The notes under the pieces are model-generated. The model did no database searches. It was not told where the DNA came from and saw only the letters and a list, made by a program, of their open reading frames with translations. A program made the position numbers and the translations under genes. From NCBI GenBank assembly GCA_027484825.1, contig JAIXSE010000015.1, forward strand, positions 248,001 through 312,000: a DNA stretch of 64,000 nt, given 5' to 3'. Shown here in pieces: positions 59,437 through 64,000 of this stretch (positions are counted from its first letter, which is position 1; each line of letters starts with the position of its first letter). This stretch comes from Rubrivivax sp. (GTDB lineage Bacteria > Pseudomonadota > Gammaproteobacteria > Burkholderiales > Burkholderiaceae_C).

Positions 59437-60168
59437 CTAGCTGCTACGTTGCAATCGCAGCGGATGGTCGGCAGAGAGCGCTGCAACACACGCCGCGAGC
59501 TTGCCCTCCAGCTCGGCGACCAAAGGCTCCAGATGTACGACTACGTGTTCGGGCGAGGTCAGCATCTCTGGGAAAGCCCACGATGTCGCGGCCCTCGTCA
59601 TGTAGTCAGCCTCGAAGGGGTAGACGCCCCTGAAAGCCTTCAGGATGGTGCTCTCAGCGAGCTTAACTACGGCATCGCCGAGATATCCGAACTCTCCGCC
59701 GTCGGGCCGCAGTCCATACTGGATGCGCAGGGACTTCGGAAGCTCCCAGTAGACCACCCTGCACCTTTGCACGCGGTCATTGAGCTCTGCGAGCCGCATG
59801 GCGACGACCTCCGCACTCGCCACAGCTTTAGTATCGGCTAGAGACTGCAAATGGACGTTGGTGAGCGCCGCCGCCTCCTTAGCACCGATCTGGAAGCCAC
59901 TCTCGGACAACAGGATGCCACGGTCAGCGCCGGTGTCGGCGACTATCTCGCGCAGCGCCAGTACGTGTAGCTTGTTCACCGGGGTCTGCCAGCACTTGCA
60001 CTCGACGATCCAGGTCACCTCGAAGCCAATATGGCGCGATTTCACGAGGACGTCGACGTCGTGCTTCGTTCTGGCGCCCAGCACCGTGACGTCAGCTTGT
60101 GCGTCCATCCCCATCGACCGAAAGAAGGCCGCGGCCTCCTCTTGATAGTTCTGCCAGGCAGCAGCCAT
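59437..60168 (-). CDS. Mrr-like restriction endonuclease domain protein
   Basis: A 243-aa protein. Residues ~5-95 fit the Mrr-type PD-(D/E)XK nuclease: helix YQEEAAAFFRSMGMDAQ, GARTKHDVDVLV with Asp39, then WIVECKCW giving Glu56-x-Lys58, followed by VNKLHVLALREIV and RGILLSESGF. Such domains cut modified or foreign DNA. The C-terminal ~140 residues have no family I recognise and could be a specificity part. It is divergent from the DUF4031/TS-like operon. Codon use is unlike the core genes. Confidence 0.78.
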   Translation of the reverse strand: MAAAWQNYQEEAAAFFRSMGMDAQADVTVLGARTKHDVDVLVKSRHIGFEVTWIVECKCWQTPVNKLHVLALREIVADTGADRGILLSESGFQIGAKEAAALTNVHLQSLADTKAVASAEVVAMRLAELNDRVQRCRVVYWELPKSLRIQYGLRPDGGEFGYLGDAVVKLAESTILKAFRGVYPFEADYMTRAATSWAFPEMLTSPEHVVVHLEPLVAELEGKLAACVAALSADHPLRLQRSS

Positions 60169-60402
60169 GCCTCGCCCCCCCGAGCTGTTTAGGACCGTAT
60201 GCTACGAGACCGCCTGCAAAAGTCCGCGGTGAAACTGACGTTGCCGCCCTTCCTGCTTTTGCGCACCGAGCTGGAGCTTCGGTGCGATGACGGCGACGAG
60301 GCTGTACCGCCCCGGCATGTCCGGAGCGTTCTTCTTTGCACGAGCCGGGGCACGGCCATGCCGCTTGACCGGCGTGGTACATTTCGCGCACGGGGGAGAG
60401 AA

Positions 60403-60705
60403 TTGGTATACGTCGACGATGCCAACGTGTCGAAGTACGGCCGTAGCTGGTGCCATTTGACGGCGGACAGCCTTGACGAGCTTCATGCATTCGCTGCTCG
60501 CATTGGCCTACCTAGCCGTGCATTCCATCGCGGCGCGCGCCACCCCCACTACGATATCACTTCGGACCAGCGGATGAACGCACTTCGCAGTGGTGCACGT
60601 CCTGTCAGTCCTCGAGACGTCGTGCGCATCACCAGGCAGGTGTTCCCTCCTGCGCCAGCCGTGGCCAGCTCGCCCAGCGACGCACAGCTTGCCCTTTTTG
60701 CCTAG
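60403..60705 (+). CDS. DUF4031 domain protein
   Basis: A ~100-aa protein beginning LVYVDDANVSKYGRSWCHL and containing SLDELHAFAARIGLPSRAFH and HPHYDIT, the conserved pattern of DUF4031, a small phage- and plasmid-associated family of unknown function. TTG 60403 is chosen because the family starts with VYVDD and a GGGGGAGAG ribosome site lies just upstream; ATG 60358 would add 15 basic residues. It is 14 bp before the thymidylate-synthase-like gene. Confidence 0.75.
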   Translation: MVYVDDANVSKYGRSWCHLTADSLDELHAFAARIGLPSRAFHRGARHPHYDITSDQRMNALRSGARPVSPRDVVRITRQVFPPAPAVASSPSDAQLALFA

Positions 60706-60719
60706 GGCATAAGCGCACC

Positions 60720-61736
60720 GTGTATATCCGCGCAGACTCCCTGGACGACCTTCTGGGCAAGGTTTATCGGCAGATTCTGGCTCGCGGCACACGCATTGAA
60801 CCCACTAAGGGCCCGGCTCACGAAATCTACGGCGTCCTGCTGAAACTCTCGGCGCCACGCCTGCGCCTCAGCCGGACTGAGTCGCGCGGCATCATGTTTA
60901 GTTGCCTCGGGGAGTTGCTCTGGATAATGGCTGGCAGCAACGCGCTGGACTTCATCGAGTACTACATCTCGGAATACAGGAAGTCGTCCGACGATGAACT
61001 GACCATTCACGGAGCGTACGGTCCGAGGATGTTCGGCAAACGCCCCAATGACCAGCTGGCGCGCGTTATTTCGGCGCTGCAGAGCAAGCCTGACTCGCGC
61101 CAAGCGGTAATCCAGCTGTTCGACCGTCGTGACACTCTTGAATACCACAGCGACATCCCCTGCACATGCACGATGCAGTTCGTCATACGAGACCGACGGC
61201 TGCACATGCTGACGTCGATGCGGTCCAACGACGCTTGGCTCGGACTACCGCACGACGTGTTCGCATTCACCATGATTCAGGAGCTGGTTGCCCGATCGCT
61301 GGGCGTTGAATTGGGGGCGTACCAGCACTCCGTCGGTAGCCTGCATCTGTACGAGCGAGACGACAAGAAGGCCATTCGGTATCTCGATGAAGGGTGGCAG
61401 CCCAGGAGGCCTATGCCGCCGATGCCCAAGGGCGACCCATGGCCTGCCATTGGGAGGTTGCTCGAATTCGAGAAGGCCGTGCGGAATGGCGATGCAAGCG
61501 CTGTAGACCCACGGGAGTCCATGGAGCCCTACTGGGCTGACCTTGCTACCTTGCTGGCGATCTACAAGGCAGGCAAGACGACCGGCAACCAAAACGAAAT
61601 CAGACGGCTGAAGCGGCGTCTGACGAACGAGGTCTACGCCATGTACATCAACAAGCGCTACGGAATGGTGCCTTCCGTCAAAGACCAAGCCACGATCTTC
61701 GATGGCACTAACGACGCATCAAAGGCTGCGGCATGA
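60720..61736 (+). CDS. Thymidylate-synthase-family enzyme, probable (d)CMP hydroxymethylase type
   Basis: A 338-aa protein starting at GTG 60720. The TS fold is evident: catalytic Cys148 in DIPCTCTMQF, the phosphate/base-binding RSND (168-171), LGLPHDVFAF, and HLYE (His209, Tyr211). In ThyA the LPFN Asn177 selects dUMP; here it is Asp179 (LPHD), as in T4 dCMP hydroxymethylase and MilA-like CMP hydroxymethylases. A ~95-residue C-terminal extension follows the TS core. It likely transfers a one-carbon unit from methylene-tetrahydrofolate to a cytidine nucleotide. Its stop overlaps the next gene's ATG (ATGA). Confidence 0.8.
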   Translation: MYIRADSLDDLLGKVYRQILARGTRIEPTKGPAHEIYGVLLKLSAPRLRLSRTESRGIMFSCLGELLWIMAGSNALDFIEYYISEYRKSSDDELTIHGAYGPRMFGKRPNDQLARVISALQSKPDSRQAVIQLFDRRDTLEYHSDIPCTCTMQFVIRDRRLHMLTSMRSNDAWLGLPHDVFAFTMIQELVARSLGVELGAYQHSVGSLHLYERDDKKAIRYLDEGWQPRRPMPPMPKGDPWPAIGRLLEFEKAVRNGDASAVDPRESMEPYWADLATLLAIYKAGKTTGNQNEIRRLKRRLTNEVYAMYINKRYGMVPSVKDQATIFDGTNDASKAAA

Positions 61737-62647
61737 ACGCCCAACAGAAGGAACAGCGGGCGCTTGCCCTGGAAGCACAGCTTCTCGCCTTTCATCAGAA
61801 CAACATACCGCTGCACGGCGTGGCACCGCCGGAGAACATGCTTGCCTTTGTCTGGCAACTAATCGACAGCATTCAGCGGGTGGCGTACGTGAAGGCCGTA
61901 CGCGTCCGTGCGGTCAGCGCTGAGCGAGCCAATCCGCGGAGTCACTATTTTGACCCTATTCGGGCGGCCGTGGCTGCGGGACAGACAGAGGAGGCCTTCT
62001 GGCTCGTCTTTTTGGCGACCCACTGTGGCTACAACCTGCGGACCAAGTGGCTGCTTTCAGCCGAGCTCTATGGCGCTTCTGAAGCCGCGCCGTGGACGTG
62101 GTCGCGGGTCATAAATGATCCCGAGGCCTATGCTGACTGGGTCGAAGAACACTACGACACGTTCACCGGCAAGTTCGGCAACCACCGCAAGTACGAGTCG
62201 CTCAAGCCAGGCCCCAAGGGGACAGGTGCAGTAGTCCGCAGCTATGTCAACTGGATTACAGGCTTTGGCTCGCACGCGGCAATGGTTACTCAAGCACAGG
62301 CCCAAGCGAACGGTAATGCACGTCGCGCCTTTAACGTGCTGTATGAGCAGATGCGCGCGGTCATGCGCTTCGGCCGCACTGGCCGCTTCGATTACCTCAC
62401 CATGCTTGGCAAGGTCGGGCTCGCCAACATCGAAGCAGACTCGACATACATGAACGAGGCGACGGGTCCAAAGCGCGGCGCGCGGCTGCTGTTTGACGGC
62501 CAGATCGACTCCAATACCGGCGCCCGAGTCCTGGAGGCGCGCGTGGCCGCCCTCGAGCAGCATCTCGGCGTCGGCATGCAGGTCATGGAAGACGCATTGT
62601 GCAACTGGCAGAAGAGCCCGAACATCTACCAGGCCTTCCGAGGCTAG
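61733..62647 (+). CDS. Alpha-glutamyl/putrescinyl thymine pyrophosphorylase clade 3-like protein
   Basis: A 304-aa, mostly helical protein. Segments EEAFWLVFLATHCGYN, TGKFGNHRKYESL (~145-157), FGRTGRFDYLTMLGK (213-227) and ATGPKRGARLLF (243-254) resemble the aGPT-Pplase3 family named by Iyer and Aravind in DNA hypermodification islands. I recall this pattern rather than having searched it. No P-loop is visible. It overlaps the TS-like gene by 4 bp, so the two products are probably made together and act in one pathway. Confidence 0.65.
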   Translation: MNAQQKEQRALALEAQLLAFHQNNIPLHGVAPPENMLAFVWQLIDSIQRVAYVKAVRVRAVSAERANPRSHYFDPIRAAVAAGQTEEAFWLVFLATHCGYNLRTKWLLSAELYGASEAAPWTWSRVINDPEAYADWVEEHYDTFTGKFGNHRKYESLKPGPKGTGAVVRSYVNWITGFGSHAAMVTQAQAQANGNARRAFNVLYEQMRAVMRFGRTGRFDYLTMLGKVGLANIEADSTYMNEATGPKRGARLLFDGQIDSNTGARVLEARVAALEQHLGVGMQVMEDALCNWQKSPNIYQAFRG

Positions 62648-62649
62648 GC

Positions 62650-63726
62650 CTACTCAGCCCAGGAGTACCGCTTTTTGAGGAAGTTAAGCTTGTCCTGACG
62701 TACCAACCCGCGGTGCTGCAGCTGTCCGACCACGATGCCGGGCGAGATGGACAGGTTCTTCGCAAACCGCATGATGCTTCGGTACTCATGGGGCAGCGCT
62801 CGCAAGGCCGCCTCTTCCGACGGCGGGATAAGTACTTGGCCAGCGAACTTGTTCGCTTCGGCTTCTTCGTGACTATCCAGCTCACGTCGGTCGGACCACT
62901 CAAGAAACAGGCGGTCCTCATGAAGCAATAGATGGCCAGCTTCGTGAAAGAAGGTGAACCAAAAGCTGTCGTCGCGTAGGTAGCGAACGCTTAGCTGCAG
63001 GATCGCTTTGCCGTTCTTGACGCGGGTCGCACCGCTGGCAGGACACCCATTCGGCGCACGCACGATTACAACGGCGACGCCACAAGCAGCGCACTGCTTT
63101 TGGAGCTGCGGGATGAACTCGGCAGGCTCACGGACACGGGTCAGTGATTTCAAAGACGGCAACAAGCGTTCAAAGCACTCACGCGACCAAGTATCCACTG
63201 CCAGTTCCACAGCGGCCAGCTCGCCCTGTCTGAGCCATGCGGCTACCGATGCCGACTGCGCCGTGAAAACCGGCGAGGTGCGGTACGCGGTAAGGCCGGT
63301 TCGGTCGGAGAGCCAGGTGTCGCGCCACTCGTCAACAGTGCTGACTTCGAAGAAGTCCAGGGCGTTTCGTAGCTTTTCGCCCGTCGAGGTTGCTTTCTTG
63401 AGCCACCCGTACCGGACCATATCTGCAATCGGAAGGCTCGAGACCCACTGCCTACTGTCGTCCTGAAGCGCCTCAACGTCACGCCTGTACTGAGCTTCGC
63501 GTGCCAGCCAGAAACGCACGCTGCCCCCAACGACACCAGCCAAGCCTTTGGCACGAGCCGCAGTAATCGGCAGTTCGCCGTTGAAGAGCTGCCACAAATT
63601 CCCTGCGGGCAGCCCAATCGCCCGCGCGAGGTCGTCAGACTGGAGGCTCTTCTTGGCGATCAGTTGCCGGACGGTCTCGCCCGGCGGGGATGCCCATGCT
63701 GGGGAGAACTCGGTAGAGCGCGTCAC
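62650..63726 (-). CDS. HigA-type antitoxin/regulator with ImmA-IrrE metallopeptidase domain
   Basis: A 358-aa protein. An N-terminal HTH (ETVRQLIAKKSLQSDDLARA...GLPAGNLWQLFNGE, key part LPAGNLWQLFNG) is followed by a middle helical region and a C-terminal ImmA/IrrE peptidase domain with HEAGH at 261-265 and EEAEANKFAGQVLIP. Such fusions act as antitoxins or regulators that cleave repressors. It overlaps the toxin-like gene by 4 bp and ends 2 bp from the aGPT-like gene tail to tail. Confidence 0.85.
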   Translation of the reverse strand: MTRSTEFSPAWASPPGETVRQLIAKKSLQSDDLARAIGLPAGNLWQLFNGELPITAARAKGLAGVVGGSVRFWLAREAQYRRDVEALQDDSRQWVSSLPIADMVRYGWLKKATSTGEKLRNALDFFEVSTVDEWRDTWLSDRTGLTAYRTSPVFTAQSASVAAWLRQGELAAVELAVDTWSRECFERLLPSLKSLTRVREPAEFIPQLQKQCAACGVAVVIVRAPNGCPASGATRVKNGKAILQLSVRYLRDDSFWFTFFHEAGHLLLHEDRLFLEWSDRRELDSHEEAEANKFAGQVLIPPSEEAALRALPHEYRSIMRFAKNLSISPGIVVGQLQHRGLVRQDKLNFLKKRYSWAE

Positions 63727-64000
63727 AGGTCGCCTCCAATGTAGATGACCTTCAGCCTCGAGACCTGCGCCCAGTCGACGGCTTCACCGCTCACCGGCAC
63801 ATGCTGGTGGTTCACTTCGCAGTAGAGATATCGCCCTTCACTGAGCCCAAACCGTATCAGTCCCACCCTCGACCCGCAACTCTCGAATTCCAGCCCCATC
63901 TCCATCAGCTCGGCGACCGTTTCAACGGCCTCCAGGTCGGCGAGATACCTACGCAATGCGGCTGCGGCACTTTCCCCAAGCTCACGCTTGGCCCTTGCGG
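63723..64000 (-). CDS. HigB-like toxin (5'-partial)
   Basis: The frame is open to the window edge, so the N-terminus is missing. The visible ~92 residues include AKRELGESAAAALRRYLADL and a C-terminal YLYCEVNHQHVP...VDWAQVSRLKVIYIG. The LADLE-A-xx-V and VDWxxVxRxKI pattern is that of RelE/HigB-like killer proteins. It precedes the HTH-ImmA/IrrE gene with a 4-bp overlap, the usual HigBA order. Assignment is moderate because the start is absent. Confidence 0.6.
   Translation of the reverse strand, partial: ARAKRELGESAAAALRRYLADLEAVETVAELMEMGLEFESCGSRVGLIRFGLSEGRYLYCEVNHQHVPVSGEAVDWAQVSRLKVIYIGGDL

Follow-up and report, generated by a model that had tools for sequence, protein, structure and literature searches.

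The window analyzed here is a stretch of 64,000 nucleotides from Rubrivivax sp. (assembly GCA_027484825.1, contig JAIXSE010000015.1, positions 248,001 to 312,000 of the forward strand), in which a low-GC island located between gyrB and a malonate-decarboxylase-like cluster (names read from the open reading frames, ORFs) carries two convergent gene pairs. The first pair encodes an enzyme of the thymidylate synthase (TS) family and an aGPT-Pplase3/ADDT-like protein (ADDT below), and the second a helix-turn-helix (HTH) protein with an ImmA/IrrE zinc protease domain (HTH-ImmA) and a relative of the HigB toxin. These four genes form a small core of about 3.3 kb, called the cassette in what follows, and are accompanied in the window by two accessory genes:

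59437-60168, minus strand: Mrr_cat-like nuclease, accessory, divergent from the operon (PF04471, E 1.7e-14)
60199-60705 as an ORF, 60403-60705 with the probable start, plus strand: DUF4031 protein, accessory (PF13223, E 2.7e-27)
60720-61736, plus strand: TS-family enzyme, core, predicted dCMP 5-hydroxymethylase (PF00303, E 4.6e-24)
61733-62647, plus strand: aGPT-Pplase3/ADDT-like protein, core (PF18746, E 2.4e-94; PF18724 (ADDT), E 1e-79)
62650-63726, minus strand: HTH-ImmA/IrrE zinc protease, core, convergent with ADDT (PF06114, E 1e-7; PD-Lambda-2_B, E 4.3e-26)
63723 to about 64055, in-window part 63723-64000 (L002:11723-12055), minus strand: HigB-like protein, core, HigB motif absent

The TS and ADDT genes overlap by 4 bp (ATGA, 61733-61736), the HTH-ImmA gene is separated from the end of the ADDT gene by 2 bp, and its start overlaps by 4 bp the HigB-like gene, which crosses the window end. 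The initial annotation had grouped the nuclease, DUF4031, TS and aGPT-Pplase genes into one system, and Pfam confirmed all four of them, along with the divergent orientation of the nuclease and the TS/ADDT overlap. The profile searches also placed 61733-62647 in aGPT-Pplase3, as had been proposed (PF18746, 316 bits for a cut-off of 25, residues 38-304; PF18724, 268 bits for a cut-off of 26.2). The pairing of TS with ADDT was right, but the conserved unit is larger than the one drawn there and differs from it: TS and ADDT are constantly accompanied by HTH-ImmA and the HigB-like protein, which had been missed, and not by Mrr or DUF4031.

The composition of this unit was established in a census of 53 non-viral loci with an ADDT match above threshold, based on profile searches of the ORFs within 8 kb. 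TS was found beside ADDT in 48 of these loci, HTH-ImmA in 49 and the HigB-like protein in 45, so that the expected recurrence of the four genes first named holds for TS and ADDT and fails for Mrr (5/53) and DUF4031 (9/53); the other accessories are a MazG-like protein (21 loci) and a 265-aa protein (9 loci). The loci come from 40 ADDT relatives detected in genome contigs that were scanned using patterns of the window protein as seeds, from 6 of the 8 plasmid hits, and from three genome draws searched with Pfam (4/399, 3/369, and 4/398 genomes with ADDT, the window's own genome being counted in each). Most of the 53 therefore stem from the pattern-seeded scan, the Pfam draws being less biased, and since near-duplicate loci are present (e.g., L049/L050, L110/L111, and L113-L115 with L078), the counts do not correspond to independent events. 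The window itself and L096, which has no ADDT above the threshold, were left out of the census. Among the eight Pfam-draw hits other than the window, five (L089-L093) carry TS and HTH-ImmA; L096 is cut by the contig edge, yet HTH-ImmA and HigB-like genes are present beside its ADDT fragment, and L094 and L095 have neither TS nor HTH-ImmA. Some of the loci lacking TS are incomplete: L075 and L095 hold contig-edge ADDT fragments, that of L095 adjoining a transposase-like frame, and L077 a partial ADDT.

The same layout was observed at 17 loci on virus-classified contigs (TS in 17, HTH-ImmA in 16, and the HigB-like gene in 14), where the cassette genes missing from L108, L109, and L113 would lie beyond the ends of their contigs. 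TS and ImmA are also annotated next to ADDT in all six of the plasmid records opened among the eight hits. The hosts include many Proteobacteria, a Flavobacterium metagenome bin (L041), and bacteria carrying the cassette on a Leptospira plasmid and an Arthrobacter plasmid. In L060 and L109, TS is divided into two frames with some 1-2 kb between them, as would be seen after an insertion. L114 and L115, which belong to a single viral contig of 118,644 bp, have the cassette near both ends, as in a terminally redundant assembly, and the match lengths of their cassettes equal those of a Pantoea plasmid (L078).

The lower-GC block noticed after gyrB in the initial annotation proved to be well marked: the island (59030-64340, partly read from L002) has a GC content of 60.4%, lower than that of all 215 intervals of 5.3 kb taken in 250-bp steps along positions 1-59026 (minimum 63.7%, mean 67.7%). 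The ADDT family occurs in only one of the 16 genomes of the genus, that of the window, and is absent from the 15 congeners. When the region was compared with its relatives by blastn, the similarity stopped within about 60 bp past gyrB in all 10 cases, the sole exception beyond this point being a 54-bp match within the ImmA-like gene of L105. This locus, belonging to the congener G400, carries a stand-alone HigB and HTH-ImmA pair with an intact HigB motif directly after gyrB (L105:2811-4257). The cassette is mobile, as indicated by its lower GC content, its absence from the 15 congeners, and its presence on plasmids and virus-classified contigs. The position after gyrB, which it occupies in the window genome, may be a hotspot for modules of the HigB/HTH-ImmA type.

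The nearest solved relative of the TS-family enzyme is the CMP hydroxymethylase MilA (E 3.1e-47), whereas thymidylate synthases match at best with an E-value of 6.3e-18. In an alignment of 38 cassette enzymes (that of the window and those of 37 loci), Cys148, Ser169, and Asp179 are each present in all 38, and the sugar-site residues His209 and Tyr211 are fully conserved as well. Asp accompanies the use of cytosine in MilA and T4 dCMP hydroxymethylase, while uracil-using enzymes carry Asn, according to the part of PMC5175136 dealing with specificity; the cassette enzymes thus share with these two hydroxymethylases both the Cys nucleophile and the cytosine-specifying Asp. In 35 of the 38 sequences, an acidic residue occupies position 145, three positions ahead of the Cys, as does D145 of T4 dCMP hydroxymethylase, which is described as activating water in the relevant section of PMC6400193. 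The genome's own ThyA has Asn in the 179 column and Leu in the 145 column. As to the sugar, the portion of PMC5175136 concerned with it associates Ala and Lys with the ribose preference of MilA, and Ser and Arg with a deoxyribose preference: the cassette enzymes have Ser, like T4 and TS and unlike MilA (Ala176), while the second position, 127, is mixed, with Arg in 23 of the 38 (including the window protein) and Lys in 15. These residues predict that the enzyme makes 5-hydroxymethyl-dCMP, although the members carrying Lys127 may use ribose. Canonical dTMP synthesis by the cassette TS was rejected, since the genome has its own ThyA and the diagnostic residues differ. The initial annotation had left the choice between a modified cytosine and a modified thymine; with a cytosine-nucleotide hydroxymethylase predicted from the residues, the product is most likely a modified deoxycytidine and not a thymine.

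The aGPT-Pplase family was reportedly tied to hypermodification by Iyer et al. in 2013. The predicted model of the window ADDT (pLDDT 93.7) resembles the predicted structure of a phage amino acid:DNA transferase (E 1.7e-5, TM 0.52, root mean square deviation 6.6), and more weakly endonuclease III (0.022) and the helical domains of 5-hydroxymethyldeoxyuridine (5-hmdU) kinases (0.32 and 0.45). Among solved structures, no fold match was obtained (best E 1.2), nor anything useful by sequence. In 37 ADDT sequences, 28 columns are invariant, including GNHRK (149-153), MEDA (285-288), and CNW (290-292). By analogy with its family, the protein is predicted to attach a group to a modified pyrimidine. 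The phage thymidine hypermodification pathways likewise combine a TS-family enzyme with the ADDT family, but the cassette differs from them in that its TS is predicted to act on cytosine instead of uracil, and in its setting, which is bacterial, plasmid-borne, or prophage-like, with HTH-ImmA and HigB-like genes. Divergent ADDT proteins stand alone in L094 and L076, which means that the family also occurs without TS or HTH-ImmA nearby.

HTH-ImmA matches PD-Lambda-2_B, its nearest PADLOC model, over residues 17-338, and the zinc-protease site HExxH (His261, Glu262, and His265) is present in all 66 cassette members. For comparison, we used six stand-alone HTH-ImmA genes, each preceded by HigB, from G400 and from five genomes of the order in which ADDT had no match. 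Pro225, Cys228, Ala230, and Arg248 are found in 65 or 66 of the 66 cassette members, as against 0, 0, 0, and 1 of the six stand-alone relatives. The HigB-like proteins differ from the stand-alone ones in the motif residues, which we take to be catalytic: H..[KT]G[DN]R occurs in none of 60 cassette copies and in 6/6 stand-alone pairs, DYH in 0/60 and 5/6, and RL[VT]F in 2/60 and 6/6. No paper giving evidence for the catalytic residues of HigB was found; the PDB title of 5ixl, a structure encountered in the HigB fold search, names a Y91A variant. The model of the HigB-like homologue of L039 (pLDDT 93.7) gave ParE/RelE/HigB toxins as Foldseek leaders, though weakly (best E 0.023, probability 0.92), and TM values of 0.60-0.68 with a HigB structure. 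The protein is tentatively predicted from modeling to keep the toxin fold, and judging from its residues it seems to be a toxin relative which has lost the active site. By sequence, it is only distantly recognizable: in Pfam, the L039 protein had no match and the L042 protein a single irrelevant one (0.083), no relevant match was found among PDB sequences, and the weak matches were to a PHROG toxin (0.034) and to two PADLOC families with one member each (best 0.001).

The arrangement of an HTH-peptidase fusion adjoining a HigB-like gene is that of PD-lambda-2, which is presented as a tested defence system in the account given by PMC9519451. As far as that account goes, the HTH-peptidase of PD-lambda-2 is toxic alone and is rescued by its HigB-like partner, which is the reverse of an ordinary pair; since the roles are reversed there, either direction of control is possible in the cassette. 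The cassette is unlike PD-lambda-2 in that its HigB-like protein lacks the stand-alone motif and, like the cut copy in the window, 21 homologues gave no match to PD-Lambda-2_A. It differs also in that the third component, C, had no match among the six window proteins, and in its constant TS-ADDT partner.

Some of the genes flanking the cassettes are of the kinds found in defence systems. In a scan of 125 of the 166 flanking ORFs, PADLOC models for IetA (3), GajB (2), and reverse transcriptases (2) were among the 25 commonest of 134 families, and TIR (2) and Mrr (3) among the 25 commonest of 107 Pfam families, these Mrr genes being accessories already counted. AAA ATPases of a general kind may account for the IetA matches, and few further gene clusters recur in the flanks. 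This context supports a defence role without proving it.

Taken together, the cassette looks like an uncharacterized virus-defence system present in many unrelated bacteria. The reading we prefer, though we hold it tentatively and at somewhat less than even confidence, is that the cassette is mobile, probably directed against phages, and makes a hypermodified deoxycytidine under the control of a repurposed toxin-antitoxin switch. It is supported computationally by the four-gene unit, the residue signatures, the predicted folds, the loss of the HigB motif, the mobility, and the defence-like flanks. The TS-ADDT operon would be the effector: the TS-like enzyme would place a hydroxymethyl group on C5 of dCMP, and the ADDT-like enzyme might couple an amino-acid- or amine-like group at C5, on the nucleotide or on DNA. 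The second operon, probably derived from a HigBA/PD-lambda-2-type module, would be the switch, in which the HigB relative, deprived of its motif residues, may act as a partner or sensing domain, and HTH-ImmA, which has kept its zinc-protease site, as a repressor-protease reacting to infection. The hypermodified deoxycytidine would then poison or mark replicating phage DNA, and the optional helpers (Mrr, DUF4031, the MazG-like protein, and the 265-aa protein) might handle the product or the DNA bearing it.

Should this reading be true, base hypermodification, so far mainly a form of phage armour, would also be a weapon of bacterial defence triggered by infection, with cytosine and not thymine as the base concerned. 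What is predicted can be measured directly by chemical means: TS should yield 5-hydroxymethyl-dCMP, and the presence of ADDT as well should be required for any further derivative. In the HigB-like protein, whose motif is gone from all 60 cassette copies but conserved in the six stand-alone pairs, there would be a tangible example of a toxin converted into a regulator. The strongest form of the proposal, which is possible but which we regard as doubtful, is that of a widespread bacterial immune cassette producing a hypermodified deoxycytidine with no known phage counterpart, with a disarmed toxin as the sensor and the antitoxin as a self-contained repressor-protease. No paper recognizable as describing the TS, ADDT, HigB-like, and HTH-ImmA set was listed by searches of the open-access literature. 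In the available part of PMC13092281 (2026, DefensePredictor), aGPT-Pplase is among the predicted, unvalidated defence domains, and TS and 5-hmdU kinase are among the validated ones; the cassette has in common with that work an aGPT-Pplase protein predicted to be defensive and a TS domain validated in defence. The aGPT-Pplase candidate of that paper could be the cassette described here.

Several observations weigh against the preferred reading. The HTH part of HTH-ImmA is weak in Pfam (E 0.042, under the cut-off), and the fold search with the HigB-like model gave no match at an E-value of 0.001 or better. Phage ADDT pathways employ a 5-hmdU-type kinase, and none was found with PF18723 in the window's own genome, by a search which had no positive control and which came up empty in the control genomes too; this is a further difference from the phage thymidine pathways, and the ADDT leaving group is therefore left without an explanation. 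The ADDT loci L076, L077 (partial), and L094 lack TS and ImmA with no evident break. The correlation between the pairwise distances of the four proteins (Spearman 0.74-0.81 vs. maxima of 0.17-0.40 in 200 permutations, with 43-49 dereplicated loci) speaks in itself for the preferred reading, but this co-variation partly reflects host phylogeny. As regards the flanks, the 40 control ORFs (window 1-55000), in which no PADLOC family was detected at the same threshold, are likewise on the favorable side, but come from one genome and were not matched to the loci. Lastly, in 13 of 57 loci, where about 4 were expected, the regions upstream of TS and HigB showed longer shared matches than all 12 controls, but this slight operator excess was not accompanied by any common motif, and the MazG-side promoter showed no excess of shared matches (4/28).

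The main rival explanation, which we consider rather unlikely, is a guard or addiction system, in which a modified nucleotide or DNA mark made all the time by TS-ADDT keeps the HTH-ImmA protease quiet, and in which phage takeover of the nucleotide pools or the DNA removes this mark, releasing a protease which is the real toxin and kills or arrests the cell. The toxicity of the PD-lambda-2 HTH-peptidase in the absence of its HigB-like partner, as given in the portion of PMC9519451 cited above, speaks in favor of such a guard, as do a protease site intact in 66/66 members and a HigB motif missing from 60/60. On the other hand, stand-alone HTH-ImmA pairs exist without TS-ADDT, and the modification is therefore not a general need of the HTH-ImmA module.

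It is improbable that the cassette serves as armour by modifying the DNA of the phage or phage-plasmid carrying it. The 17 loci on virus-classified contigs are in line with this idea, and so is the Pantoea plasmid, which has lysozyme-like and ddrA-annotated genes, but the loci are largely on bacterial genome contigs, plasmid flanks such as those in Arthrobacter and Rhizobium show no phage genes, and a tblastn search of 50,697 phage records gave no ADDT relative. TS matches occur in 2595 phage records, every one below 60% identity, and HTH-ImmA matches number six. That the operon is a small biosynthetic one, producing a nucleoside used as antibiotic or signal in the way MilA contributes to mildiomycin synthesis, appears slightly less probable still: among solved structures the closest to TS is MilA, but Ser169, present in 38/38 enzymes, fits deoxyribose, contrary to Ala176 of MilA, none of the other genes of such a pathway recurs constantly across the loci, and the linkage to HTH-ImmA and HigB is left without an explanation. 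We give least credit to a restriction-modification-like system, close to what the initial annotation had proposed, in which the host DNA is hypermodified and Mrr cuts DNA lacking the base or differing in it, since Mrr, although divergent from the operon in the window and present in L038-L041, L078, and the viral locus L115, is not constantly linked to the cassette (5/53 loci) and lies on the far side in L041; nor do these counts support a nuclease that enforces or counters the modification.

The accessory genes other than Mrr vary between loci. The true start of DUF4031 is probably the TTG at 60403 located behind GGGGGAGAG, because its homologues are 94-130 aa long and begin at this point. The MazG-like accessory gave weak matches only, to a PHROG (0.029) and to a PDB pyrophosphatase (0.029), and otherwise matched PHROGs without known function. 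The 265-aa protein had no relevant match in Pfam, PHROGs, or the PDB; its GLNPSN stretch presumably recalls uracil-DNA glycosylases. It never occurs together with the MazG-like protein in the hidden Markov model census and sits between TS and ADDT, in L041-L043, L047, L054, L080, and L089-L091, as well as in 4 of the 17 viral loci (L108-L111). In the rhizobial loci L052, L068, and L074, an AAA ATPase with an M41 peptidase domain is located upstream of TS.

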